Shown piece by piece: positions 6,263-64,000 of a DNA stretch of 64,000 bases. The notes beneath the pieces are model-generated. The model made no database searches. It saw nothing but the letters and a program-made list of their open reading frames with translations, and was not told the DNA's origin. Position numbers and translations under genes: made by a program. Numbering within the stretch: the stretch's first letter is position 1; each line of letters begins with the position of its first letter. The DNA comes from Ruminococcus sp. (GTDB lineage: Bacteria; Bacillota; Clostridia; Oscillospirales; Acutalibacteraceae), in assembly GCA_017457955.1 (NCBI GenBank), contig JAFTGL010000015.1, forward strand, positions 54,212 through 118,211, in the 5' to 3' direction.

Positions 6263-6811
6263 TTACGCACCTCCATATATATTTTGGGTATTTTCTTCTA
6301 AAAATGCGGCGATCCATTCCAGCACGTCGGGGGTGTCGAGACTTACGTCGCCGAGTATCTCTCTCAGCTCCCTTGTATCAAGGGTGAAGCTGTCGACGTC
6401 GGTACTGTGGGTAAAGACGAAGTCGATATCCGGATTGCACTGTATCAGGATCTTGATGGTGGAGTTGATATCTCCGAGGGGAGTCATGTCCATGTGCGAC
6501 GGCACGTAGGAGGCGGTGGTGGTGGTTCCTACGTTCTTTTCGCTCTGAATGTCGAAGCTGCCGCCCGTCTGCTCGGCGCTGAGCTTGAACAGCGGTACGC
6601 CTAAGCCGACCTTGCGCGTGGTGCGCGTGGTGAAGAACGGATCAATGACCTGCTGTACCTGCTCCTCAGTCATGCCGCAGCCGTTGTCGGCAATCTCGAT
6701 GGTCAGACTGTCATCCTTCTCGCTCTCTTTCACGGTGATCCGTACCAGCGTCGCTTCGGCGCGAACGGAGTTCTGCGCCACGTCCATGACGTTGAGGGAC
6801 AGCTCTCTCAT
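6263..6811 (-). CDS. GHKL-type ATP-binding protein within the hydrogenase operon
   Basis: A 182-residue histidine-kinase-like ATPase domain protein. The N and G1 boxes are visible (DVAQNSVRAEAT, then IADNGCGM near 48-53), as is a G2-like lid (TRKVGLGVPLFK). There is no phospho-acceptor His domain or sensor, so it is not a complete histidine kinase. It is inserted between hndA and hndB and overlaps hndA by one base (TAATG). The position suggests an activating, assembly or regulatory role for the hydrogenase; the function is inferred. Confidence 0.8.
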   Translation of the reverse strand: MRELSLNVMDVAQNSVRAEATLVRITVKESEKDDSLTIEIADNGCGMTEEQVQQVIDPFFTTRTTRKVGLGVPLFKLSAEQTGGSFDIQSEKNVGTTTTASYVPSHMDMTPLGDINSTIKILIQCNPDIDFVFTHSTDVDSFTLDTRELREILGDVSLDTPDVLEWIAAFLEENTQNIYGGA

Positions 6812-7311
6812 TATGCTCCCTTGTACTTCTTCAGGATACCGGGGATCTCATCAACGGTCAGTCTGCCGTAGACGTCGTCGTTGACCGTCATAACGGGAGC
6901 CAGACCGCAAGCGCCGATGCAGCGGCAGGCTGTCAGCGAGAACTTGCCGTCCTCGGTACATTCCTCAGCCTCGATGCCGAGCTCTTCAGAGAGCTTGTTG
7001 AGCACGTTGCCTGAGCCCTTGACGTAGCAGGCGGTACCGAGGCACACGGAGATGTTGTACTCGCCCTTGGGGGACAGCGCGAACTGGCTGTAGAAGGTCG
7101 CGACGCCGTACACCTCGTCGATCGGAACATCCAGACCCTCAGCAATCATGGTCTGAACCTCCAGCGGCAGATAACCGTAGATATCCTGCGCTTCCTGCAG
7201 TACGGGCATGACCGCACCGGGATCGTCCTTGTGCTTTGCGATGACTTCCTTCAGCTGTGCTTCCTGCTCGGGAGTACCCTTGAACGGCAGGCTGCTGATT
7301 TTCTTAAGCAT
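6811..7311 (-). CDS. hndA: Hydrogenase NuoE-like [2Fe-2S] subunit
   Basis: A 166-residue member of the 24-kDa NADH dehydrogenase subunit family, with the four-cysteine pattern in VCLGTACYVKG and TACRCIGACGLAPV. It transfers electrons between the flavin subunit and the rest of the complex. It is the first gene of the operon. AAGGAGGAATAA precedes the ATG, and a promoter lies about 90 bases upstream. Confidence 0.93.
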   Translation of the reverse strand: MLKKISSLPFKGTPEQEAQLKEVIAKHKDDPGAVMPVLQEAQDIYGYLPLEVQTMIAEGLDVPIDEVYGVATFYSQFALSPKGEYNISVCLGTACYVKGSGNVLNKLSEELGIEAEECTEDGKFSLTACRCIGACGLAPVMTVNDDVYGRLTVDEIPGILKKYKGA

Positions 7312-9247: not shown

Positions 9248-10518
9248 TTCAAATTACCCAGCTGATCGTAGACCGACTGGATCCGCGCTTTGAGCTTATG
9301 GATGCAGTCCGTCTCTTTGGCATTGCCCTTGACGATGTCTTCGGCTAAAGCACGGCAGGTGGGAGCGCCGCAGGAGCCGCAGTCGAGACCGGGCAGGTTC
9401 TTGCAGATCTCTTCCATCTTCTCCATCATATCCATCGCCTCGATGATGTCTTCGGACAGGCGGAAGCTCTCGGCGTTGAAGGTCAGCTCGTTTTCCCACA
9501 TCATCAGGTCGAGGTCGTTCTCTTCAAGGTGATTCAGCGAGACGGGCATGTATTTGCGCAGGTTCTGGATACGCGCTTGGGCGACATAGGGGTTCTCGAC
9601 AGCCAGTACGCCGCCGACACAGCCGCCGGAGCAGGCGTTGAGTTCGATGAAGTCGACGCCGTGGATGTGCTCGTCCTCAAGCTCTTCAAGGACGCGGATG
9701 ACGTTTTCGATACCGTCCGCGGCGAGGTACTTTTCGCCCAGCATAGCGGCAGCTTCACCGCCCGAGGTTGCCCAGCCGACGCCGATGAGACCCGATTTCG
9801 CGATCGGCTCCACGACCTTGAGCTTATCCATCTTGGAGGTCAGCTCGGGGTAGATCTGCGAAATGGCGATCGCGCCCGAAACGGCGCTCTTTTCGGAGCT
9901 GTTGGGGGCGTTGATCTCAGTGACCTTCGCAGGGCAGGGGGTGATGAAGAACACACCGATATCGTCGTCGGAAAGCCCTGTCATGCTGATGACCTCTCTG
10001 CGAGCCATCTTGGCGGCGACCTCCATGGGCGCTAAGAGCGGCATGACGTTGTCGCACAGCTCGGGGAAACGGATCTTGATCAGGCGCACGACGGCAGGAC
10101 AGGCTGAGCTGATGATCGGAAGTTGGAGCTTCTTTTCCCGAATCAATTGACGTGTTGCTTCGGATACCAGCTCCGCGGCGCGGCTGACTTCATAAATGAA
10201 GTCGAAGCCCATGGCACGCAGACCCGTCAGCACGATGTCGATGTCGTTGAGGTTGTTGAACTGACCGAACAGCGCGGGGGCGGGGATGGCGATTTTGATT
10301 TTGTAGTTTTCGATCTCGTCGATCGAGTTGGAGCGGGCACGCTTGGCATGGTGCGGACAGATGCGGATACATTCGCCGCAGTCGATACATCTCTCGGAGA
10401 GGATGTGCGCCTTGCCGTCACGGATGCGGATGGCTTCCGTAGGACAGCGCTTGAGACAGTTGGTACAGCCGCAACACTTGTCCGCTTCCAGTTCGACGGA
10501 GTGGAAATATTTGTTCAT
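9244..10518 (-). CDS. [FeFe]-hydrogenase-like iron-sulfur protein, putative H2/redox sensor
   Basis: A 424-residue protein with an N-terminal two-[4Fe-4S] domain (CCGCTNCLKRCP, CIDCGECIRICP), a hydrogenase large-subunit C-terminal domain, and a C-terminal Fe-S domain (LDCGSCGAPTC...DC). The H-cluster ligand cysteines seem to be kept in SSACPAV, TPCPAKVTE and NACSGGCVGG. The proton-transfer Cys that precedes the L1 ligand is Ala, and the GGGxP part of L3 is changed. This is the pattern reported for sensory (group C) enzymes, so I infer a sensor and not a catalyst. Neighbours are an ATPase and DRTGG proteins. Confidence 0.85.
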   Translation of the reverse strand: MNKYFHSVELEADKCCGCTNCLKRCPTEAIRIRDGKAHILSERCIDCGECIRICPHHAKRARSNSIDEIENYKIKIAIPAPALFGQFNNLNDIDIVLTGLRAMGFDFIYEVSRAAELVSEATRQLIREKKLQLPIISSACPAVVRLIKIRFPELCDNVMPLLAPMEVAAKMARREVISMTGLSDDDIGVFFITPCPAKVTEINAPNSSEKSAVSGAIAISQIYPELTSKMDKLKVVEPIAKSGLIGVGWATSGGEAAAMLGEKYLAADGIENVIRVLEELEDEHIHGVDFIELNACSGGCVGGVLAVENPYVAQARIQNLRKYMPVSLNHLEENDLDLMMWENELTFNAESFRLSEDIIEAMDMMEKMEEICKNLPGLDCGSCGAPTCRALAEDIVKGNAKETDCIHKLKARIQSVYDQLGNLK

Positions 10519-10571
10519 GACAATTCCTTTATGCTTTTGCTGAGTCTCCCATGGATAAAGGGAGATTCAAG

Positions 10572-10997
10572 TCATTCTTTTACCCTTACGGTCAGGTACA
10601 GGTCTGTACCCTTGCCGATCTCGGTCTCGATGCGCATGTCGTCGGTGTACTTCTTGATGTTCGGCAGACCCATGCCCGCGCCGAAGCCTAAGTTGCGGAC
10701 GTTGTCGGGCGCGGTGGAAAAGCCCTCCTGCATCGCCTTTTCAACGTCGGGGATGCCGGGACCGTGGTCGGACAGGAGAACATCGACGTGGTCGGGGAAG
10801 ATGTCGACGTCGACAAAGCCGCCCTCGGCGTGGATGACCATGTTGATCTCCGCTTCGTACATCGCGATAGCGACTCTGCGGATGGCGTCGGTGTTGTAGC
10901 CGAGCGCTTTCAGACGCTTTTTGACGGAGCCTGAGGCTTCACCCGCGCGGGTGAAATCCTCGCCGCTGACGTCATAGTGCAGATGGATGTTGCTCAT
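10572..10997 (-). CDS. Anti-sigma-factor-type GHKL ATPase
   Basis: A 141-residue single-domain ATPase of the RsbW/SpoIIAB type. It has the N box (AMYEAEINMVIHA), the G1 box (LSDHGPGIPD) and the G2 box (GFGAGMGLPNIKKY). RsbW-like proteins bind ATP and phosphorylate or sequester partner proteins. It overlaps the DRTGG gene upstream by 4 bases and precedes the iron-hydrogenase-like sensor, so it is a likely signal-output component. Confidence 0.85.
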   Translation of the reverse strand: MSNIHLHYDVSGEDFTRAGEASGSVKKRLKALGYNTDAIRRVAIAMYEAEINMVIHAEGGFVDVDIFPDHVDVLLSDHGPGIPDVEKAMQEGFSTAPDNVRNLGFGAGMGLPNIKKYTDDMRIETEIGKGTDLYLTVRVKE

Positions 10998-50195: not shown

Positions 50196-53100
50196 ATGAA
50201 AATTCGTAGGATTATCTCCGTAGTTCTGGCAGTACTGATGCTGTCTTCGCTGTTCACCGTAGCGGCTTCCGCCGCTGACGCTGATCTCGCAGGCACCGGC
50301 TACGCTAACCAGAGCTATCTTGAGACCTATGCCGCACAGGCGGCTAAGGAGTCCGGACTCGGCTATACCTATACGCCGACCGCCACTACCTTCAAGGTGT
50401 GGGCTCCCGAAGCTACCTCTGTGATGGTAAAGATGTTTACCACCGGTACTGACGCTGAGTCGGGCGCTGCCGTTCTCGGCACCTATGCTATGACCTACAA
50501 CAGCACCACCGGCATCTGGTCGCTCACCAAATCCGGCGACCTCAAGAACACCTATTACACCTATCTCGTAACGCGCAACGGCGTTGTCAGCGAGACTGTT
50601 GACCCGTATGCCAAGGCTGTCGGCGCGAACGGCAACCGTTCCATGGTCTGCGACCTTGACTCCACCGACCCCGCAGGCTGGGACAGTGACGAACATGTGC
50701 TGTTCGACAACCCCGGCGAAGCGGTCGTATGGGAGATCCACGTCCGTGATTTCTCCATCGACGTTTCTTCCGGCGTCAGCGAAGCGAACCGCGGTAAATA
50801 CCTTGCGTTCACCGAGGGCAACACCACCGTGAACGGCGAAGGCAAGATCGCTACCTGCGTTGACTATCTGGTCGAGCACAACGTAAACTGCGTACAGCTG
50901 ATGCCTGTCGAGGACTTCGCGTCCATCGATGAGACCGATGACGCTGTCAGACGCAACTGGGGTTATGATCCCAAGAACTACAACGTTCCCGACGGCTCCT
51001 ATTCCTCCGATCCTTATGACGGCAACACCCGTATCAAGGAATTCAAGATGCTGGTTCAGGCGCTGCATGACCGCGGTATCGCCGTTGTGATGGACGTCGT
51101 TTACAACCACACCTTCGTCCGCGAGGGTTCTCCGTTCTCCAAGACCGTTCCGAAGTATTTCTATCGTATGTCCAATATGAACAACAATACTTATTACAAC
51201 GGCTCGGGTCTGGGTAACGTTCTGTCCACCGAAAAGGCGATGACCCGTCAGTACATCCAGGATTCTCTGCTGTACTGGGTCAACGAGTATCACGTCGATG
51301 GTTTCCGTTTCGACCTGATGGGCTGCTTCGATACCGCCTCTGTCAAGGCGTGGAGAACTGCTCTGAATGCTGTTGACTCCCGTATCATGATGTACGGCGA
51401 GCCCTGGGCAGGCAGCTCCGACGTCGGTATCTCCAATGCGGTTTCCAAGTCCAACATCGCTTCTCTCACCGGCGTAGGCGCTTTCAACGAGGGCTACTCC
51501 GACGCTTTGAAGGGCAGCCATGAGACCGCTACCGGTACAGGCTTCCTCAACGGCGGCTCCAACACCGAGATCCTGAAGGCTGCCGGCGGCACCGCTTCCG
51601 ATTTCAGCGGCGCTAAGCCCGGTCAGATGATCCAGTATACCGACAACCACGACAACTGGACGCTCTTCGATAAGATTCTTGCCGCGAACAAGACCTCCGG
51701 CTTCAAGACCGCGAAGGACGACGAAACTCTTTATAACACAAACAAGACTATTGTCAATAATCCCAGCGCTCAGGTGCTCGGTCAGATGAAGGTCGCTCTG
51801 ACTTCCTCCCTGACCTCTCAGGGTATCCCGTTCACCGTTGCGGGTACAGAATTCTGCCGCACTAAATACGGCGATCAGAACTCCTACCGTACACCCGACA
51901 GCATCAACGCGATCGACTGGAGCCGTGCTTCCACCTATTCCGCGATCGCCGATTACTATGCGGGTCTTGTTGCGATCCGCAAGGCTGTTTCCGCTTTCGG
52001 CGACAATACCGCTAACAGCGTTTCGACCATTTCCTCCAGCCCGACAGCTTGGCAGATCACCAATAGTAAGTCCGGCGAGTGGAACAAGGTCATCGTCGCG
52101 CTGAACAACTCCGCTTCCGCGAAGTCCATCAGCCTGTCCGGCTCATGGGTAGTTGTCGCGAACGGCACCAAGGCAGGCACCGCTTCTCTGGGCACCGCTT
52201 CCGGTTCTTACAATGTTCCGGCTTGGAGCAGCGTCGTTCTTGTCGACTCTTCCTCCTTCGGTAACTATACACAGCCCGCTTTAGGTACCGCCGCTCTGAC
52301 CGTTGAGCATTACACCCGCGACAGCGCTTCCGGCTCTTACACCAAGGCGCTGACCGAGACCGCGAAGTATAAGGAAGGTCAGACATGGCGCGCTTCGCAG
52401 AATCTTGCGATCCTGTTTGACCACACCCTTGACAAGACCGAGTCTACCGCTGCAGGCAACGCTGTCTTTGGTACCGCGACTGCAGGTCAGGACATCACTG
52501 TCAAGTATTATTACACCAGAAACATCGGTTCCGGTTACCTGACCGTTAATTTCCTCAACACCTCTACAAACGCGGCAGTCAAGACCCCGATGAAGTACCG
52601 TCTGAAGGACGGCGATAAGTTCTCTATCCCCGCTACCCGCGTACAGGGCTATGAGATCGATACCGCGAGGATCCCCGGCAAAACCATCGACACGTTTGAC
52701 GCTTCGAATCCCGCTACCTTCAACTTCTATTACAAGCCTCTGACCAACACCACCACCAAGGTCCACTACTACAATTCCAAGGGCTGGTCCTGGGTCAACT
52801 GCTACGCTTATGACGATCAGGGCAACGAGGCTCTCGGCGCATGGGCTAACCAGGGTAAGAGAGACGCTTCCAAGATGAACGACGATCCCGATGAGGCTGA
52901 CTCCAAGTGGCTGGTCGTTGACGTTCCCACCTCTGCTTGCTACGTCATGTTCCACAACACCAACGCAAACGCGCAGGTTCCCGATCAGGGCGAGCCCGGC
53001 TATGAGGTTGCAGGCGAGGCTTGGATCAAGGATAACGTCACCACCTTCAACTGCACGATCGTTACCTCTCATATCGACCTTGTGACCGGCGAGAAGCTCT

Positions 53101-54422
53101 CTCCCGACGTCACCAAGGCTTACACCAACGTCGGTTCCAATCAGGTTTATGCTACCTCTCCCGACACCACCCTCAACCGCAACTACATCGCTCCCGCGCT
53201 GGCTTCCGGCTTCTATCAGCCCGGCGTTCTGAACGTTGTTTATCTCTACACCGATGAAGTTCATCATGAAGATAAACTCACCTACGGCGACGTTGACCTC
53301 GATACCTATGTCACCGTTATGGACGTTACCGTTCTGCAGAGAGCGCTTGCGAAGCAGATCACTCTGACAACTGATCAGAATACCGTTGCCGACGTAGACA
53401 ACAACAGTGAGGTCGGTTCTACCGACGTTACCTACATCCAGCGTTACCTTTCTGAGATGAAGGTCAAGGGCAACCGCACCGGCAAGGTCGTCGGCGAGGC
53501 AATCGGCGAGTACACCTACGACGAGTTCCTCACCGCTTACAACGCGCTGAATACTCTGATCGCGCAGTATCCTGCTGCAACCTACGGCACCTATCCTCAG
53601 TATGTCAGCGCACAGGCTGCTCTGAGCACCTATTCCACCACCAGCATGAATCCCAATGCGGACGTTGACGAGATCGATGCAGGTTATCTTGCATGTACTG
53701 CCGCTTACAGCGCGCTGAGCGCTATTCCGATCAGCGGCGGTGGCGGCGGTGGCGGTGACGACACCAGCGGCCGCACCATCATCTTCTCCAACAACAAGGG
53801 CTTCAGCACCGTCAACATCTATTACTGGTCTGACGGCGGCGACGGTCCTGTAGCATGGCCCGGCGTAGCGATGACCTATCTCGATACCAATGATTACGGC
53901 GAGACCCGCTACACCTTCGAGTTGCCCGAGGGCATGACCAACTACATCATCAACGACGGCTCTCAGCAGACTGTCGACATTCCGTTCACCGGTTCCACGG
54001 GCGTTTACATGACCGATCTCGATGGCGAGGGTCATTATGAAGTAGACTTCTATGACATCTCCGGTGAGTCCGGCGGCGGTTCCTCCGGTGGCGGCGGCGA
54101 GTCCGGTGGTGGCGGCAACACCACAGGTTCCTTCCTGCTGACCGATAACTTCAATTGGGGTACCGCATATGTTTACGCATGGGACGCTGACGGCAACGCG
54201 CTCTGCGGCGAGTGGCCCGGCTCCTCTCAGGCTGAGACCGTCACCAACGATTACGGCGAGACCCAGTTCAAGTGCTACATTCCCGAGGGCGCTGTAGGCG
54301 TCATCCTGAACAACGGCAACGGCGCTCAGACCGAGGATATCACGGACTTCAGCTATACAGGCTACTGGATGGACGGCTCTCAGAATGATCTCGGCCACTA
54401 CATCGTAACCGGCTGGAATTGA
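50196..54422 (+). CDS. Secreted dockerin-bearing pullulanase with starch-binding modules
   Basis: A 1408-residue exported GH13 enzyme that should cleave α-1,6 bonds in starch or pullulan. It has a signal peptide (1-about 27), a CBM48-like domain (about 50-160), and a type I pullulanase catalytic domain with NWGYDP (about 253), DVVYNHT (about 300), nucleophile D373 in DGFRFD, acid/base E402 in YGEPW and D486 in TDNHDN. Then come a CBM26-like module (about 852-945), a dockerin (about 1030-1090) with two duplicated Ca-binding segments, a helical linker, and two more CBM26-like modules (about 1190-1285, 1310-1408) joined by Gly/Ser linkers. AAGGAGAGG precedes the ATG. The dockerin is internal, not terminal. 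Confidence 0.93.
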   Translation: MKIRRIISVVLAVLMLSSLFTVAASAADADLAGTGYANQSYLETYAAQAAKESGLGYTYTPTATTFKVWAPEATSVMVKMFTTGTDAESGAAVLGTYAMTYNSTTGIWSLTKSGDLKNTYYTYLVTRNGVVSETVDPYAKAVGANGNRSMVCDLDSTDPAGWDSDEHVLFDNPGEAVVWEIHVRDFSIDVSSGVSEANRGKYLAFTEGNTTVNGEGKIATCVDYLVEHNVNCVQLMPVEDFASIDETDDAVRRNWGYDPKNYNVPDGSYSSDPYDGNTRIKEFKMLVQALHDRGIAVVMDVVYNHTFVREGSPFSKTVPKYFYRMSNMNNNTYYNGSGLGNVLSTEKAMTRQYIQDSLLYWVNEYHVDGFRFDLMGCFDTASVKAWRTALNAVDSRIMMYGEPWAGSSDVGISNAVSKSNIASLTGVGAFNEGYSDALKGSHETATGTGFLNGGSNTEILKAAGGTASDFSGAKPGQMIQYTDNHDNWTLFDKILAANKTSGFKTAKDDETLYNTNKTIVNNPSAQVLGQMKVALTSSLTSQGIPFTVAGTEFCRTKYGDQNSYRTPDSINAIDWSRASTYSAIADYYAGLVAIRKAVSAFGDNTANSVSTISSSPTAWQITNSKSGEWNKVIVALNNSASAKSISLSGSWVVVANGTKAGTASLGTASGSYNVPAWSSVVLVDSSSFGNYTQPALGTAALTVEHYTRDSASGSYTKALTETAKYKEGQTWRASQNLAILFDHTLDKTESTAAGNAVFGTATAGQDITVKYYYTRNIGSGYLTVNFLNTSTNAAVKTPMKYRLKDGDKFSIPATRVQGYEIDTARIPGKTIDTFDASNPATFNFYYKPLTNTTTKVHYYNSKGWSWVNCYAYDDQGNEALGAWANQGKRDASKMNDDPDEADSKWLVVDVPTSACYVMFHNTNANAQVPDQGEPGYEVAGEAWIKDNVTTFNCTIVTSHIDLVTGEKLSPDVTKAYTNVGSNQVYATSPDTTLNRNYIAPALASGFYQPGVLNVVYLYTDEVHHEDKLTYGDVDLDTYVTVMDVTVLQRALAKQITLTTDQNTVADVDNNSEVGSTDVTYIQRYLSEMKVKGNRTGKVVGEAIGEYTYDEFLTAYNALNTLIAQYPAATYGTYPQYVSAQAALSTYSTTSMNPNADVDEIDAGYLACTAAYSALSAIPISGGGGGGGDDTSGRTIIFSNNKGFSTVNIYYWSDGGDGPVAWPGVAMTYLDTNDYGETRYTFELPEGMTNYIINDGSQQTVDIPFTGSTGVYMTDLDGEGHYEVDFYDISGESGGGSSGGGGESGGGGNTTGSFLLTDNFNWGTAYVYAWDADGNALCGEWPGSSQAETVTNDYGETQFKCYIPEGAVGVILNNGNGAQTEDITDFSYTGYWMDGSQNDLGHYIVTGWN

Positions 54423-56362: not shown

Positions 56363-56827
56363 TTAACTCCTGACTTGCATGGATAATTCGATAACGCTTT
56401 CGATCGGAATATCTATCGCAGGGACCCGCTTATCTTCGATGTCCTCCGCACCGTAGAAAATCAGCTTTTTCTCCAAAGGGTCGACCCGCTTCAGGACGCC
56501 TGTCAACCGCTCGTATTTGCCGCCGTCCTTATACAAATCGGGCTTGAAGTATACGGCTGTTACGGCGGGATGACCGCCGTTTTCGATGATAGCGCTGATC
56601 TCGGTGATCACGCCGTTGATCATGTCGATCTCACTTTCCGACAATTCGATCCTGCTGTCGGTCAGCCGCGCTTCTTCGTTTACCATAGCATCAAATCCGG
56701 ACAGTGCCGCGAACGGGGCGAACTGCGCCGCGCGATCATATAACGACATGTGCTTTCGCGTCGCGGACTGATGATGCGGCAGGTCAATGATATCCGCGTA
56801 TATTTCCCTTGCTCTTTTTGTATCCAT
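56363..56827 (-). CDS. YolD-like protein
   Basis: A 154-residue protein with the YolD-like signature IIDLPHHQSATRKHMSLYDRAAQFAPFAAL-type start (about 13-42) and a C-terminal β-rich part. YolD proteins accompany Y-family polymerases in Firmicutes and may modulate them. It overlaps the polymerase gene by one base, so the two are translated together. Confidence 0.85.
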   Translation of the reverse strand: MDTKRAREIYADIIDLPHHQSATRKHMSLYDRAAQFAPFAALSGFDAMVNEEARLTDSRIELSESEIDMINGVITEISAIIENGGHPAVTAVYFKPDLYKDGGKYERLTGVLKRVDPLEKKLIFYGAEDIEDKRVPAIDIPIESVIELSMQVRS

Positions 56828-58410
56828 CAGTCTGCTTTGTGCCCTCCGATCTGTGCGTTTCTTTCTATCGTTGTAGCGCCCTCGGAAAGATTCATCCCTT
56901 TGATGACGGCGTTCTTGCCGTAACGGCGCTGTAAGCTGAGCACGGCGGTCTGGATCTTTCTTTCCTTTTCATCGGCAGCCTTCTCCCTTGCGCGTTCTTT
57001 TTGGAGCTGCTCATAATCGGTAAATAAGCTGAGCTGTTCCGAGGTCTGAACAGGGATATCCGCCTCGGATATCAGATGATTGGCGGAAATATTCAGCCTG
57101 CGGATCAGCAGATCGGGATCGACGATTTTGGTATAAACGTCCATCACGACGGCCATGATCCTGCGCGTGGAGTTTGTGTACCGTTCAAGATTGCCGGTGC
57201 CGTGGGCGTGCTTGGGGATGACCCTGCCGTAATGATCGACGGTGATCCTGCCGGTATATGGCTGACCGGTCTTTCTCACGGCATAGACGGTATCTTTGAC
57301 CGTTTTGCCCGCGCTTTTCACCATGAGGCTCTCGCGGTCATAGCCGATCGTCAGAACGATCTGTTTGGTGATAAGTCCCTTCTGAACGAGATCGAGCACT
57401 AATAGCTCGGTCATTTCACGGATGATCAGGCGGCCTTTATCATAGTCGTACGGTTCTTTGAGAACTTGTCCCGATGAAAGGGAGTTGGTGGACGGGCGGT
57501 AACTTTTGATATACTCTATTGTTGTCGGCTCCCATCCCCACGCGTGGTCGATCAGCAGCTCGGCGTTGATACCGAAGATTTTATAGAGGGTATTCTCACA
57601 AACAGGGGATAGGGAATACCGCGCGACGTCTCCCATCGTGTATAATCCCAGCGCTTCGAGCTTTTTGCTGTAGCCATGTCCGACGCGCCAGAAATCTGTC
57701 AGCGGTCGGTGACACCACAGCTTTTCTCTGTAGGTGATCTCGTTCAGCTCGGCAACACGCACGCCGTCCTGATCGGCGGGAACGTGCTTTGCTTCGATAT
57801 CCATCGCGATCTTTGCGAGATAGAGATTTGTCCCGATCCCCGCGGTCGCCGTGATGCCCGTCGTGTAAAGCACTTCACGGATCATCGTCATCGCAAGCTC
57901 GTGCGCCGTCATCCGGTAAAGCGGCAGATAGTGGGTCGCGTCGATGAATACCTCGTCGACGGAATAGACATGGATATCTTCGGGCGCGATGTATTTCAGA
58001 TAGATGGCATATATCCGCGTACTGTACTGTTCGTACAGCCGCATACGCGGCAGTGCGATCAGATAGGAGAGCTCCAGCGAGGGGTCGCTCAGCAAATCGC
58101 TCGCAATATATGATGACGAGGCAAAATGATACTGATTGTCCCCGCCCTTGCGGATGTGACCGCTTCTGATACCGTCGCACAGTCTTTGGGTGTTGACCTC
58201 TCTGACGCGCCTAACGACCTCAAAGAGTCTGGCTCTGCTCGAGATACCGTGTGCTTTCAGTGACGGCGAGACGGCGAGACAGATCGTTTTCTCGGTCCTC
58301 GAAGGATCGGCGACTACCAGATTGGTGTTTAGAGGATCGAGCTTTCGCTCGGAGCACTCGACGCTTGCGTAAAAGCTCTTCAAATCTATGGCGATATACG
58401 TGCGCTCCAA
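56827..58410 (-). CDS. Y-family DNA polymerase (UmuC/DinB-like)
   Basis: A 527-residue translesion polymerase. The active-site motifs are AIDLKSFYASVEC (first Asp) and YSVDEVFIDAT (SxDE), with the helix-hairpin TDFWRVGHGYSKKLEALGL and a little-finger domain. It is longer than DinB and is like the clostridial UmuC class. The C-terminal tail includes EQLSLF, a likely β-clamp-binding motif (QLSLF). It is in an operon with a YolD gene and a small conserved gene, behind a LexA-like site. Confidence 0.92.
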   Translation of the reverse strand: MERTYIAIDLKSFYASVECSERKLDPLNTNLVVADPSRTEKTICLAVSPSLKAHGISSRARLFEVVRRVREVNTQRLCDGIRSGHIRKGGDNQYHFASSSYIASDLLSDPSLELSYLIALPRMRLYEQYSTRIYAIYLKYIAPEDIHVYSVDEVFIDATHYLPLYRMTAHELAMTMIREVLYTTGITATAGIGTNLYLAKIAMDIEAKHVPADQDGVRVAELNEITYREKLWCHRPLTDFWRVGHGYSKKLEALGLYTMGDVARYSLSPVCENTLYKIFGINAELLIDHAWGWEPTTIEYIKSYRPSTNSLSSGQVLKEPYDYDKGRLIIREMTELLVLDLVQKGLITKQIVLTIGYDRESLMVKSAGKTVKDTVYAVRKTGQPYTGRITVDHYGRVIPKHAHGTGNLERYTNSTRRIMAVVMDVYTKIVDPDLLIRRLNISANHLISEADIPVQTSEQLSLFTDYEQLQKERAREKAADEKERKIQTAVLSLQRRYGKNAVIKGMNLSEGATTIERNAQIGGHKAD

Positions 58411-58881: not shown

Positions 58882-59103
58882 CTATTTTGCTTTCTTTTTC
58901 TTGTTGAAGCAGTGTTTGTCAAAACTTGGATTGAAGGCATAGAAATTCTTGCTGTCGAGCTTGTCGGTCAGCAGACGCAGGTTTTCACCGAAGCGCTGAT
59001 AGTGCACGACCTCTCTGGCTCTGAGGAAGCGGATCGGGTCGATGACGTCTGGATCGTCGCAGAAGCGCAGGATGTTGTCATAGGTGGTTCTCGCTTTCTG
59101 CTC
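58882..59103 (-). pseudogene. cotJC: cotJC C-terminal fragment (spore coat / Mn-catalase family)
   Basis: In frame from GAG at 59103 to TAG, 73 residues. They read EQKARTTYDNILRF, DDPDVIDPIRFLRAREVVHYQRFGE and DKLDSKNFYAFNPSFD in order, which I recognise as the C-terminal third of CotJC/manganese catalase proteins, including a Glu/His metal-ligand helix. The 5' two thirds are absent. The reading frame meets a stop (TGA 59106-59104) directly at the junction, and the serine recombinase gene ends 47 bases further. The rest of the gene was not found in the window. Confidence 0.8.
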
Positions 59104-59149
59104 TCAAAAGGCTATCAATGCACTACATAGATCACACGCTCATCGTTTT

Positions 59150-60724
59150 TTATAAATTCCAATGAATGTTGATGATACGGCGGTTTTTACTGCCGCCGAC
59201 TTCTATGTAATCAATTAAAGTGTTGACCGTCAAGCTATCTAATTCCTTTATATCCTTGAATTGCCGTATAACATCAAGCTGATTGTTTGAATCGGCTCTT
59301 TGTGCGGTGATATAGTCTATCTCTTTTTGATAGTCCGCTATATTCTGTTCCAACGCTTGCTTGCTTGTTTTACAATCCTCGGATAATAGTAAGAATTCTT
59401 CTTTTGAGATTACATCGTCGAGCTTATCAAGATAGAGATTTTTAAACCGTTTATTCAGCTTCTCAATCGACTGCTCGGCTGTCTTTATCTTTGATTTCAG
59501 CGTCTTTATTTTATCCTCATATCCGCTTTTGATACTCAGATTTTCGGATATGTACGCTTCATCAACAAACTGCTGATACAATAGCTGAATCTGTTTGAGA
59601 ACTTCCCTTTGCAAGACCTTTTCGGAAACGAATGCACCTGAACATCTTCCGCGTGCGTAATAGTTAGTCAGGCAGCGAAAATACCTTTCATGATGCGTGT
59701 AGTATATTCGCATAGAACTACCGCAATTAAGACATCTTACTTTTCCTGCGAAGATGTTAGGTGTGCCGAAGTTACCGGGTTTTGGCTTACCGGCTCTCAG
59801 CCGTTGTACCCTGTCCCAAGTATCTTGGTCGATGATCGGCTCGTGCATGCCCTCGACAATGTCCCATTCATCCTGTGGCTTCTTGCGTTTCTTAGTGGAT
59901 TTATAGGATATATTCTCTGTCATACCTTGTACGACACAGCCGCGATAGACTAAATTCGACAGCATTCTTCCGATAGAATAAGTGTGCCAGATATCGGAAC
60001 AATCCTTGTGTGAATTCTGAAACGGTTGACCATGCTGCTGCTTGTAGGTTGCAGGGTTCGGTATACCTTGTTCATTCAGTTTTCGGGCGATAGGGGTAAT
60101 GCCGTAGCCTTGTAAATACAAATTAAAAATGTATCTGACGACTTCGGCAGCCTCTTCATCAACGATCAAATGATTCTTGTTATCGGGATCTTTGATATAG
60201 CCATACGGTGCAAATGCACCTACCCATAAGCCTTGTCTGCGTTTTGAAGCCATTGTAGCCTTGATGTTATCAGATAAATCTTCTAAATACCATTGATCGA
60301 CAAGCGAATTGATTTGTCGCTGCTTGCGGTTAAATTTATTGGTCGAATCCGCATGATCGACAAGTCCGACAAACCGAATACCCCAAATAAGGAATAAACC
60401 GTTTATATACTTTTCTACAAGCTCCATATCACGCGCAAATCTTGATTGCGTTTTGCAAAGCACCATATTAAACTTACGGCTTTCCGCGTCTTGTATCAAA
60501 CGTTTGAATGCGGGGCGGTCTCGGTCTGAGCCTTTGAAATCTTCGTCGTTATAGATGTTATAAATCTCTATTTGATTATCCTTACAATAGTTGATCAGCA
60601 TTGTCTGCTGATTAATGATGCTTTCCGAATCATCTTCCTTTCGTATTTTATCTCTGTCCTCCCTCGAAAGACGAACATATAAAGCTGCTTTCAAAGGAGA
60701 AAGGTTGTTATTCTGTTGTAACAT
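59150..60724 (-). CDS. Large serine recombinase
   Basis: A 524-residue site-specific integrase. It has an N-terminal resolvase domain with the catalytic Ser region (YVRLSREDRD, then the QSRFARDMELVE arginines), a recombinase domain (APYGYIKDPDNKN...), a zinc-ribbon domain (RCLNCGSSMR, RCSGAF) and a coiled-coil domain (about 400-480). Such enzymes integrate and excise phages, conjugative elements and skin-type elements. The 3' end lies 47 bases from a truncated cotJC gene. Confidence 0.95.
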   Translation of the reverse strand: MLQQNNNLSPLKAALYVRLSREDRDKIRKEDDSESIINQQTMLINYCKDNQIEIYNIYNDEDFKGSDRDRPAFKRLIQDAESRKFNMVLCKTQSRFARDMELVEKYINGLFLIWGIRFVGLVDHADSTNKFNRKQRQINSLVDQWYLEDLSDNIKATMASKRRQGLWVGAFAPYGYIKDPDNKNHLIVDEEAAEVVRYIFNLYLQGYGITPIARKLNEQGIPNPATYKQQHGQPFQNSHKDCSDIWHTYSIGRMLSNLVYRGCVVQGMTENISYKSTKKRKKPQDEWDIVEGMHEPIIDQDTWDRVQRLRAGKPKPGNFGTPNIFAGKVRCLNCGSSMRIYYTHHERYFRCLTNYYARGRCSGAFVSEKVLQREVLKQIQLLYQQFVDEAYISENLSIKSGYEDKIKTLKSKIKTAEQSIEKLNKRFKNLYLDKLDDVISKEEFLLLSEDCKTSKQALEQNIADYQKEIDYITAQRADSNNQLDVIRQFKDIKELDSLTVNTLIDYIEVGGSKNRRIINIHWNL

Positions 60725-60806: not shown

Positions 60807-60911
60807 TCAATGCTTAATATTCCTTAGAATAATCTGTAACAGTGCGTCATTAACACTGCTTTTGAGTTCTTTTTGATTATCTGTCTTAAACTGATTATTG
60901 ACTTCAATCAT
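60807..60911 (-). CDS. Small ORF upstream of the serine recombinase
   Basis: A 34-residue ORF with a good ribosome binding site (AGAGGTGATCG) before its ATG. The product MIEVNNQFKTDNQKELKSSV... is helical with a basic C-terminus. Small proteins of this kind precede recombinase genes in clostridial mobile elements, but I cannot assign a family. It is too short to be certain. Confidence 0.5.
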   Translation of the reverse strand: MIEVNNQFKTDNQKELKSSVNDALLQIILRNIKH

Positions 60912-60982
60912 TCGATCACCTCTGTAAAAACTTATGAGATTTTTGATTTTAAAATACCAGGCGGCAACATTACAAAAATTCA

Positions 60983-61246
60983 TTATTTTAGGTTTCTATT
61001 CAGTTGAGAAGGTGCGATTTGAGCAGTTGTTCTGATATTGAACAAAGCCGCTATAATCATATATTGATTGTCTTGATCATATCCTGCATCATAATCATAT
61101 CTGAAAGCTTTAAACAACTGTTTTACAGCTAATTCAGTTAGTTCTAAAGCAATGCAGATTCTTGCTAATTCCAATCTGGAAGGAATGACTTTTCCTTGCC
61201 TGAATTTGTAAATAGTATCTTTTGGAAAGCTCAAAAGACGATCTAA
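60983..61246 (-). pseudogene. 5'-truncated helix-turn-helix protein
   Basis: The last roughly 88 codons encode LLSFPKDTIYKFRQGKVIPSRLELARI and KQLFKAFRYDYDAG, which look like a DNA-binding HTH domain. The frame continues upstream, but only as the antisense of the adjacent resolvase fragment, so the true 5' end is missing. The junction is near 61247, where a resolvase fragment begins on the other strand. Confidence 0.55.
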
Positions 61247-61510
61247 CAGTCTCAAAAAGAGGTCGATGATCTTCACAAGCGCACGGCAGAGGGGATAGAG
61301 ACTGCCAGGCGCAAAGGCAAGCAGATCGGGCAAAAAGCCGGTGCAACTCTCAACATAAAAAAGAAAGCGCCCGCAAAGGCGCTTATCGAGAAACATAGTA
61401 AGGATTTCAGAGGTACGCTGAACGACGGTGAAGTCATAAAGCTGACCGGTTTGAGCCGCAACACTTACTATAAGTACAAGAAAGAGTTAGCGAGCGAGCT
61501 GAATCGTTAG
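61247..61510 (+). pseudogene. 5'-truncated small serine resolvase/invertase
   Basis: Open from a TAA at 61244-61246 to TAG at 61508-61510. The 87 codons match the C-terminal part of resolvase-like recombinases: EVDDLHKRTAEGIETARRKGKQIGQ (end of the catalytic domain and linker) and an HTH ending (GEVIKLTGLSRNTYYKYKKELASEL). The catalytic Ser domain is gone. It points to decay or rearrangement of a mobile element. Confidence 0.75.
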
Positions 61511-61549
61511 AGAGTATTTCCTGTGTGACCCAACAGTTGCGGCAGTCTT

Positions 61550-62405: not shown

Positions 62406-62850
62406 TCATAACAAACTGATGATTTTTAAGCCGGTTCTCTTTGCGTATTTCAACGTTTTTTCCGCTCCGCCTGCCCGATAAACATAACTGACAGCGACGC
62501 TTGCGTGATCGACCATCCAGCGATTGCGCTTTGGAATCCCGCCTTTATAGGTGTAGTAAGAAAAGGAATGTGCTTCAAAGGGATAGATGATCTCGTCAAA
62601 TAATAAATCGTTGAAAACCTTGAAATCACGGTAGGGGATAACAAGTATATTTTTGAGTTGGGGGGTAATTCTTCTTCAATCTATGGACAATAGCGGCACA
62701 GGTCTTATCAAAATATCCCTGACCTCCGTTCAGAAATATTTCGATACCGTTTTCTATCGCTTGCATGATAGCCTGTTCGATATCCGCTTCTTTCACCTGG
62801 TAACAATCGCGGTTGCCGATGAAAAGAGCGGTTTTTTCTTTATCTGTCAT
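62406..62850 (-). pseudogene. SLOG-family protein gene with a frameshift in a G6 run
   Basis: The 5' frame encodes MTDKEKTALFIGNRDCY to NYPPTQ, and then stops early. Another frame continues KNILVIPYRDFKVFN, YPFEAHSF and NRWMVDHASVAVSYVYR, AGGAEKTLKYAK, ending in TGA. Together they make a typical SLOG (Rossmann-fold, DprA-related) protein of about 147 residues. Removing one base from the C6/G6 run at 62660-62665 would join the frames. It could be a sequencing error, a true pseudogene or a phase switch. Confidence 0.8.
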
Positions 62851-62868
62851 GGTTCAGCAGTGAAATAA

Positions 62869-62968
62869 AAAAAGCGCAGCAACATACAAGATGAAGCTAC
62901 GCCGAAAAACACATAGCTCATTGCTGCTACACAATTTACAATCAACCATATCTAAGCAAAGCTTTATA
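62869..62968. other. Intergenic region, no gene
   Basis: About 100 bases between the SLOG gene start and the hairpin. I see no ORF with a ribosome binding site and no recognisable RNA. Confidence 0.4.
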
Positions 62969-63014
62969 TGTGACCATTTGAGCTTGTGTTTTTTACAAGT
63001 TTAAGATGGTCACA
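62969..63014. repeat. Long imperfect hairpin
   Basis: TGTGACCAT and ATGGTCACA pair perfectly, and inside them CTTGT pairs with ACAAG across a T-rich loop of seven bases. The stem is 46 bases in total with a few unpaired positions. It could be an end of a mobile element or a transcription terminator; no T run follows. Confidence 0.6.
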
Positions 63015-63227
63015 AATAAGATAAATATAACTATGCAATAGCTATATTTACTCATACTAAGATATGATTATTTAATTGTAAATTATGTAGCATAATTATG
63101 ATACCACACAGATCAAAGAAATGCAATAAGGAGTAAGAAAACATATGCAGAATTCCTCCTGATACATTTGTATTTCTGGTATATTATAGGTTCTTTCAGT
63201 TTGATTTTCATAATCATCAAGAGGATA

Positions 63228-63857: not shown

Positions 63858-64000
63858 CCGCATCTGTGATATCAGGGTTAATGATCCCGTTTATCGGTAC
63901 GACGCTCGGTTCTGCTGTTGTTTTCTTTATGAAACGATCGCTGAGTGTGAATGTTTCGAGGGCGTTGACAGGCTTTGCGGCGGGAGTGATGACAGCGGCA
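63854..64000 (+). CDS. ZIP-family metal transporter, N-terminal part
   Basis: Open to the edge of the window, 49 codons. The product MTASVISGLMIPFIGTTLGS and SRALTGFAAGVMTAA matches the first two membrane segments of bacterial ZIP (ZupT/GufA-type) transporters, which take up zinc or other divalent metals. GGAAGGTGAG precedes the ATG at a suitable distance. The rest is outside the window. Confidence 0.78.
   Translation, partial: MTASVISGLMIPFIGTTLGSAVVFFMKRSLSVNVSRALTGFAAGVMTAA

Follow-up and report, generated by a model that had tools for sequence, protein, structure and literature searches.

Elements within sporulation genes

C. difficile reportedly carries a skin element in sigK, a large serine recombinase (LSR) element lodged in a mother-cell sporulation gene. 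SP-beta, which resides in spsM, is excised in sporulation; its LSR is vegetative, and a small factor sets the time (PMC4191935). The gin element in gerE of B. cereus ATCC10987 is likewise excised in sporulation (PMC5595907), and excision of yin is temporally controlled, yet excised circles are described at all time points (PMC10747680). In the parts of the literature that we found, rearrangement of sporulation genes is treated one element and one gene at a time. The gene considered here is cotJC, a sigma-E inner-coat gene (PMC3416734). Literature naming cotJC yielded no description of a split gene; most subscription journals and supplements fall outside that search, and this is weak evidence of absence.

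The window, a 64,000-nucleotide stretch of a Ruminococcus sp. (contig JAFTGL010000015.1), bears the abrupt end of a cotJC gene next to an LSR gene. An earlier note on this DNA proposed that a skin-like element had cut cotJC and that its excision could restore the gene; the structure it described is right, and the restoration it envisaged is plausible. In relatives, cotJC is interrupted at a small number of fixed positions, a pattern suggesting that its pieces may be rejoined when spores form, and the phenomenon of interrupted cotJC is wider than one element.

The cotJC junction in the window

On the minus strand, cotJC is reduced to its last 73 codons (59103–58882), whose frame opens GAG CAG AAA GCG and runs to a TAG stop (Table 1). 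The opening GAG is the codon of Glu135, a predicted metal ligand (numbered as in CotJC alignment A1), and is immediately preceded by an in-frame TGA at 59106–59104; that is, the insertion falls inside the reading frame of a sporulation gene. The abrupt beginning at 59103 that caught the eye in the earlier note is real. The remnant matches PF05067 (window 58954–59109, minus strand, E = 2.5e-8, profile positions 148–199) and is 57–95% identical to the C-termini of CotJC from relatives, cut and intact alike; comparison with uninterrupted genes, which the note had proposed, aligns it to their C-termini. A single long paralogue (L009) is 32% identical to it. On the chromosomal flank downstream of cotJC, gene order is as in G130. 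Elsewhere in the window, positions 50196–54422 (plus strand) encode a 1408-aa amylase- or pullulanase-like protein with a dockerin-like repeat, recognized by eye, which we take to be reminiscent of the Ruminococcus bromii amylosome.

Table 1. Coordinates of features in the window and cut positions along cotJC
Feature	Position	Strand	Basis or remark
154-aa protein, chromosomal flank downstream of cotJC	56363–56827	−	Same order in G130 (L106), 45% identity
UmuC-like protein, chromosomal flank downstream of cotJC	56827–58410	−	60% identity in G130 (L106); IMS domains
cotJC 3′ part, 73 codons and TAG, site C	58882–59103	−	PF05067, identity, low pN and high pS
Likely crossover dinucleotide GA, bases 1–2 of Glu135 codon	59102–59103	−	Half pairs of relatives; window offers one half
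Element-side half of attachment site	59104–59149	−	By-eye comparison with junctions of relatives
Large serine recombinase (LSR), 524 aa	60724–59150	−	PF00239, PF07508, PF13408, PF14287
34-codon ORF just upstream of LSR	60807–60911	−	33-codon counterparts in relatives
Presumed element interior to contig end	60912–64000		DNA similarity to relatives stops at 60919–60921
Site A	Gly29–Gly30		cotJC cut position
Site B	Gly61–Thr62		cotJC cut position
Site C	Glu135		cotJC cut position, the site in the window
Site D, less sure	After HYQRFGE		LSR there in L024 and L220

The LSR carries Resolvase, Recombinase, Zn_ribbon_recom, and DUF4368 domains (Pfam) in one protein, the last of these (PF14287) barely over threshold at 25.9 bits against a cut-off of 25. 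From its stop codon to the GAG codon of the remnant there are 46 bases (59104–59149), not the 47 given in the earlier note. A recombinase of the element's own thus stands at the element end, and it is probably the integrase/excisionase. Within the intervening bases, 59110–59126 (GTAGTGCATTGATAGCC, minus strand) resembles one arm of an inverted repeat, as judged by eye against the junctions of G099, G133, and G096 and the intact site of phage contig L213. Ahead of the LSR, the short ORF has 33-codon counterparts in all five relatives examined, two of them near-identical, and is a candidate accessory or directionality factor.

DNA similarity to G099, G133, and G134 is continuous across the junction, from cotJC into the LSR, which argues against an assembly chimera or chance neighbors. 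The source is indeed a metagenome-assembled genome (MAG), and the junction is seen in one assembly of the species; however, the same type of junction recurs in many independent assemblies, isolates included, making an artifact exceedingly improbable.

The stretch from 60912 onward, presumably element and not chromosome, contains a truncated resolvase and a SLOG/YpsA-like gene, and the far junction lies beyond the contig end. A potential far end at 61229 (CTCAAAAG), which resembles the junction at 59102, was rejected: what follows it is not cotJC but the 3′ portion of a small serine resolvase gene in plus orientation. That portion (61247–61513, plus strand) matches a 179-aa frame on contig C6 at 88% identity over 86 residues, and is fused back to back with a truncated HTH-like ORF (60983–61230, minus strand; by eye). 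The two are remains of another mobile module. The SLOG/YpsA-like region (62696–63132) is 69% identical to DNA beside another LSR of the genome (L037, contig C7), and this adjacency makes it probable mobile cargo. Four further LSRs are encoded in the genome, at C1:3001, C3:82654, C6:61233, and C7:91003.

Association of the recombinase with cotJC in relatives

When the window LSR was searched against 100 same-genus genomes (E ≤ 1e-60), all 10 full-length matches (45–88% identity) adjoined a cotJC piece cut at site C. The other matches at this threshold were a 198-aa fragment in G061 (69% identity), situated on a different contig from the full-length PF05067 match of that genome, and proteins of at most 35% identity. 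In a second scan, of genome_contigs, the LSR alignment alone was used, cotJC playing no part, and the best 80 loci were kept; a site-C piece lay at most 300 bases from the LSR in 69 of these, lay farther off in 4, and was lacking on the stretch examined in 7. The 69 span Clostridia and Erysipelotrichia, with isolates among the carriers, and include Diplocloster, Clostridium fessum, Roseburia, Anaerotignum, Blautia, Longicatena, Faecalicatena, Anaerotruncus, Agathobaculum, and Sporofaciens. Because the 10 genus matches and 69 of the best 80 loci adjoin cotJC cut at this very codon, the arrangement is not chance; the interruption that the earlier note deduced from one junction recurs repeatedly at the same codon in relatives, and insertion of an LSR element in cotJC is nearly certain.

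Among viral loci with the LSR, a cotJC piece was present in 5 of 18. Against the phages and plasmids collections, the best full-length identities of the LSR were 31% and 41%, respectively, and CotJC was found in 12 records of the phages collection, some of them human-fecal contigs with cut pieces.

On the stretches around cut ends in same-family genomes, an LSR of at least 380 aa stood within 400 bases of the junction in 12 of 16 genomes for site A, 7 of 12 for site B, and 11 of 18 for site C, the two misses of G068 being due to a stretch boundary and an overlap. Relatives with the fragment and no recombinase beside it, which the earlier note would have held against its proposal, do occur: in 5 of the 18 site-C genomes (G062, G077, G092, G103, and G112), set against the 11 with a full LSR, the 3′ piece had no adjoining LSR on the stretch examined, and the far element ends of these five were not found. 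As relatives show, the LSR may be located at the opposite element end. In two more genomes (G001 and G130), a partial LSR at the contig edge lies beside the site-C cut end.

Anatomy of the junctions

Relatives that retain both halves of cotJC reveal how the two ends are related. In all 13 loci of the genome_contigs and viral sets that contain both site-C halves, these lie on the same strand and in the right order, 3.0–10.7 kb apart, in agreement with the single orientation expected in the earlier note. The halves in G074 and G099 are likewise ordered on one strand, about 12 and 11 kb apart. In G099, the order is cotJA, cotJB, the cotJC 5′ half, Rep and FtsK-like genes, the 33-codon ORF, the LSR, and the cotJC 3′ half. 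An LSR of the window clade adjoins either the 3′ half, as in the window and G099, or, in reversed orientation, the 5′ half, as in G096 and G124. Among 115 LSR–junction pairs, which represent 106 distinct LSRs, some loci having been fetched twice, 113 are oriented with the stop codon of the LSR toward the junction.

A genome or locus contributed a half pair only if it yielded a single 5′ piece and a single 3′ piece at a site. None of the 45 so obtained (24 at site C, 14 at A, 7 at B; 27 of them on one fetched stretch) misses a model position, although the piece-picking windows favor small overlaps between halves. An in-register run of at least five bases is common to both halves in 29 of the 45, compared to 0–8 at 14 shifted registers; for runs of at least eight bases, the figures are 15 and none at any shifted register. 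The short repeat at both junctions that the earlier note anticipated thus exists in the half pairs of relatives as a shared in-register core, of which the window has one half. Bases 1 and 2 of the Glu135 codon are common to 23 of the 24 site-C pairs, and any other offset to at most 13, making this GA the likely crossover at site C.

Mobility and the phage form

Several lines of evidence show the elements on the move. Between L143 (Diplocloster modestus) and L144 (Clostridium fessum), pS is 0.00 for the LSR and 0.81 for cotJC; the element therefore moved recently between hosts. The IMG/VR contig L213, which carries tail, Dit, and endolysin genes, is 99.2% identical over 3242 bases to the cotJC-inserted L140 (MAG RUG080), up to the core. 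Past the core, L140 enters cotJC, while L213 enters the mirror arm of the inverted repeat and then further phage-family genes. L213 is phage DNA with an intact attachment site, and the same element also exists inserted in L140. Two additional IMG/VR contigs, L211 and L212, encode LSRs 64% and 60% identical to that of the window followed by inverted-repeat arms, which by eye look like intact attachment sites. The G099 element, with its Rep and FtsK-like genes, is non-phage-like. Cargo differs among four small elements that were read (L162, L175, L176, and L191), save for genes common to L162 and L176, and no common directionality factor was found in the four.

Both the phage contig and the recent transfer between hosts lend weight to another account, in which ordinary temperate phages and integrative elements land on conserved codons of cotJC, excision serves their spread alone and not sporulation, and the carrier cell goes without CotJC. 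Other conserved genes are also LSR targets (PMC10083194), in keeping with such an account, which we consider unlikely though clearly the strongest competitor; evidence that weighs against it is given in the sections below.

The missing 5′ half and selection on the halves

The source genome is 74% complete, in 15 contigs, and has Spo0A_C and SpoIVA matches. A PF05067 search of the whole assembly returned the 3′ remnant as its sole match (contig position C15:113165–113320), so the 5′ half of cotJC is absent from it; CotJB had no match anywhere in the assembly, and the partner arm of the inverted repeat did not occur in it with up to three mismatches allowed. One might conclude that the fragment is a decaying relic, its 5′ half lost or never kept in this lineage and cotJC dead here; local rearrangement, attested by the truncated resolvase and HTH-like ORF nearby, would suit that conclusion. 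However, since the contig ends at window position 64000, the MAG is incomplete, and CotJB is missing too, the absent half, which the earlier note would have counted against its proposal, is not decisive against an element. In G099, cotJA and cotJB stand directly before the 5′ half, which makes it probable that the missing half and its cotJ operon went unassembled together.

The coding sequence itself also argues against decay. The 73 codons form an open frame, that of the LSR is intact, and over 48 codons the remnant shows pN of 0.03–0.24 against pS of 0.48–1.14 in comparison with relatives, for cut and intact genes alike. Here only pN and pS were used, as dN/dS values of 0.000 mostly reflect saturated synonymous sites, and L104 (a cut 5′ half) and L027 (a register shift) were left out. 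A relic is accordingly an improbable explanation.

Because the elements spread horizontally, as between L143 and L144, most of the constraint seen in between-genome comparisons is older than the insertion, and selection after that event can be tested in few pairs only. Similar divergence of LSR and cotJC suggests that L162, L176, and L173, on the one hand, and L180 and L187, on the other, each share an insertion; L162 and L176 share cargo as well. The 5′ halves of L162 and L176 differ by 2.5 nonsynonymous and 25.5 synonymous changes over 95 codons (pN/pS 0.03), pN/pS is 0.09–0.13 for the 3′ halves of L162, L176, and L173, and L180 and L187 differ by no nonsynonymous and five synonymous changes. 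Overall, cotJC pN/pS in these sets is 0.00–0.13; rows with L190 and L191/L208 were ignored, the motif match there lying outside cotJC. In the horizontal-movement comparison, whose cotJC rows include some element-coded codons, L146 gives 0.47–0.48 against L162, L173, and L176, and L162/L146 gives 0.14 in the pair-selection test. Low pN/pS in the few pairs that seemingly share an insertion is at odds with elements for which cotJC is a landing site only.

Recurrent cut sites and recombinase clades

PF05067 matches break at three recurrent positions in the 100 same-genus genomes (Table 1, sites A–C). By hand count, 42 of the 100 have at least one cut piece, including G064, near a contig edge, and leaving out G092 (an intact gene with an extra 3′ piece) and G109 (a piece at a contig edge); in 8 of these 42, a full-length match is present as well. 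In other genera of the family, a cut piece was counted by hand in 19 of 60 genomes, leaving out G019 (contig edge). At the less certain site D, L178 has parts to either side, and in several further genes the sequence ends or changes at this point with no LSR in view. Aligned with the Mn catalase 1jku, the cut sites fall near Glu35, Glu66/His69, Glu148, and His181, presumably the metal ligands of that enzyme.

A FastTree tree of the 106 LSRs requires three changes of site label, the minimum, compared to 24.9 with shuffled labels. Sites A, C, and D each occupy one side of a branch, while B needs two changes; most site-C LSRs in this tree come from the LSR search, branches are long, and site D is represented by two rows. 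In sum, the cuts in cotJC fall at three positions, probably four, that adjoin metal-ligand motifs, and its LSRs group by site. The single interrupting element pictured in the earlier note thus holds for the window; elsewhere, the same gene is hit at several sites by site-specific LSR groups.

Individual genes can be cut twice: at A and B in G068, G021, and G141, at A and C in G138 and L199, and at B and C in G024. No gene cut three times was found among the cut genes examined. In G068, cotJC lies in three pieces on one strand of one contig (C1 14546–64903; L114–L116), with about 38 kb between the first two pieces and 12 kb between the last two, and two LSRs read toward the short middle piece. 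Other layouts were also encountered. G092 (L093) has an intact cotJC and a second copy of the 3′ part about 3 kb downstream (6937–7173 and 10008–10643), as though an incoming element had supplied a 3′ end of its own and displaced the resident one, and G077 (L092) has two tandem 3′ parts 4.9 kb apart with similar upstream junctions (1603–1833 and 6511–6741), possibly stacked elements.

A PF05067 gene cut in 42 of 100 genomes of a genus, and in some twice, would be a heavy load if each cut meant permanent loss, which again disfavors phages and elements that excise for their own spread alone. A more ambitious interpretation is that, in gut Clostridia and Erysipelotrichia, cotJC serves as a multisite developmental dock: phages and other elements would bring LSRs of different clades, each targeting one metal-ligand motif, and the coat-catalase gene would lie in the germ line in two to three pieces, to be assembled in the mother cell by one to two programmed excisions. 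Since genes cut twice are in evidence and none cut three times, we hold this interpretation tentatively, at somewhat below even odds.

Proposed mechanism of cotJC restoration

We propose that the element entered cotJC through its own LSR, recombining at the GA of the Glu135 codon. The window would then contain one junction, and the cotJC 5′ half, following cotJA and cotJB, would lie at the element's other junction, past the end of the contig. Together with a directionality factor, the LSR would excise the element precisely and restore the cotJC frame, most likely in the sporulating mother cell, the cell that uses cotJC. Loss of the element there would carry no cost, as the mother cell dies and the element is retained in the spore.

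The attachment-site anatomy and the phage form L213 support LSR-mediated integration and, by implication, excision. The 5′ half and excision in this organism, along with timing, cell type, and directionality factor, are what we infer, the mother-cell timing from known cases and the selection on the halves. The likeness to skin that the earlier note drew is therefore borne out in its anatomy, that is, an LSR element inside cotJC, halves in one orientation, and a shared core; its mother-cell excision belongs with these extrapolated steps. We assign a probability of roughly 0.6 to an element in cotJC whose precise excision restores the gene, most likely in the sporulating mother cell, and regard sporulation-linked restoration of cotJC as about equally probable.

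Regulatory sequences were compared by eye with promoter consensus sequences. A conserved block precedes the LSR, no recognizable sigma-E or sigma-K site was seen before the LSR, and a sigma-A-like promoter lies ahead of the LSR of G099. The last of these would suit elements that excise for spread alone; against them, excision is tied to sporulation in SP-beta, in gin, and, leakily, in yin (PMC4191935, PMC5595907, PMC10747680). Two observations suggest that failure to excise may be tolerated. A full-length PF05067 match accompanies the cut piece in 8 of the 42 genomes, and in C. difficile, mutation of two cotJC homologues is described as lowering catalase activity while leaving the coat without significant defect (PMC11222575).

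Programmed excision, if it occurs, would mean that CotJC is still made by many gut spore formers whose cotJC is annotated as broken. One gene is targeted here at three, probably four, sites, across several families and two classes, and culturable isolates, among them the carriers Anaerotignum lactatifermentans DSM 14214 (L150), Longicatena caecimuris DSM 29481 (L168), and Agathobaculum butyriciproducens DSM 100391 (L174), make it possible to test why elements insert in genes of the mother cell. The cotJC set also yields LSRs with defined attachment sites. Should the dock interpretation be true, cotJC would be a bacterial example of gene assembly through serial DNA elimination.

Comparison with known systems

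Like skin in sigK of B. subtilis, the element proposed here is an LSR element inside a mother-cell sporulation gene that its excision would restore (PMC3416734). In contrast to skin, the gene encodes a coat protein and is cut at several sites, excision is our deduction, and the directionality factor is a candidate only. With SP-beta, a phage with an LSR in the spore-envelope gene spsM, the cotJC system has in common that phages use the site too, as L213 illustrates; it differs in the gene, and in that SprB of SP-beta, as described, is a 58-aa protein with a mother-cell promoter, for which no corresponding gene was identified here (PMC4191935). The gin element is, as G099 appears to be, a non-phage element with a short overlap at the halves; unlike the cotJC junction with its one LSR, the 28.6-kb gin carries three serine recombinases (PMC5595907). 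The yin element likewise encodes an LSR-type recombinase and intervenes in a gene for coat assembly, yabG, yet it is reported from one strain and one site, with circles at all time points (PMC10747680).

The phi027 prophage of C. difficile R20291 resembles these elements in that a phage attachment site lies by a CotJC-like gene. As an earlier case of cotJC splitting it was rejected: the portions of the accounts cited here place it adjacent to a cotJC homologue, not inside (PMC11222575, PMC12122855). Finally, with its marginal C-terminal DUF4368, the window LSR recalls the DUF4368 clade of multitargeting LSRs (PMC10083194). Unlike that clade, as its source characterizes it, relatives of the window LSR sit at one cotJC codon, in 69 of the best 80 loci.
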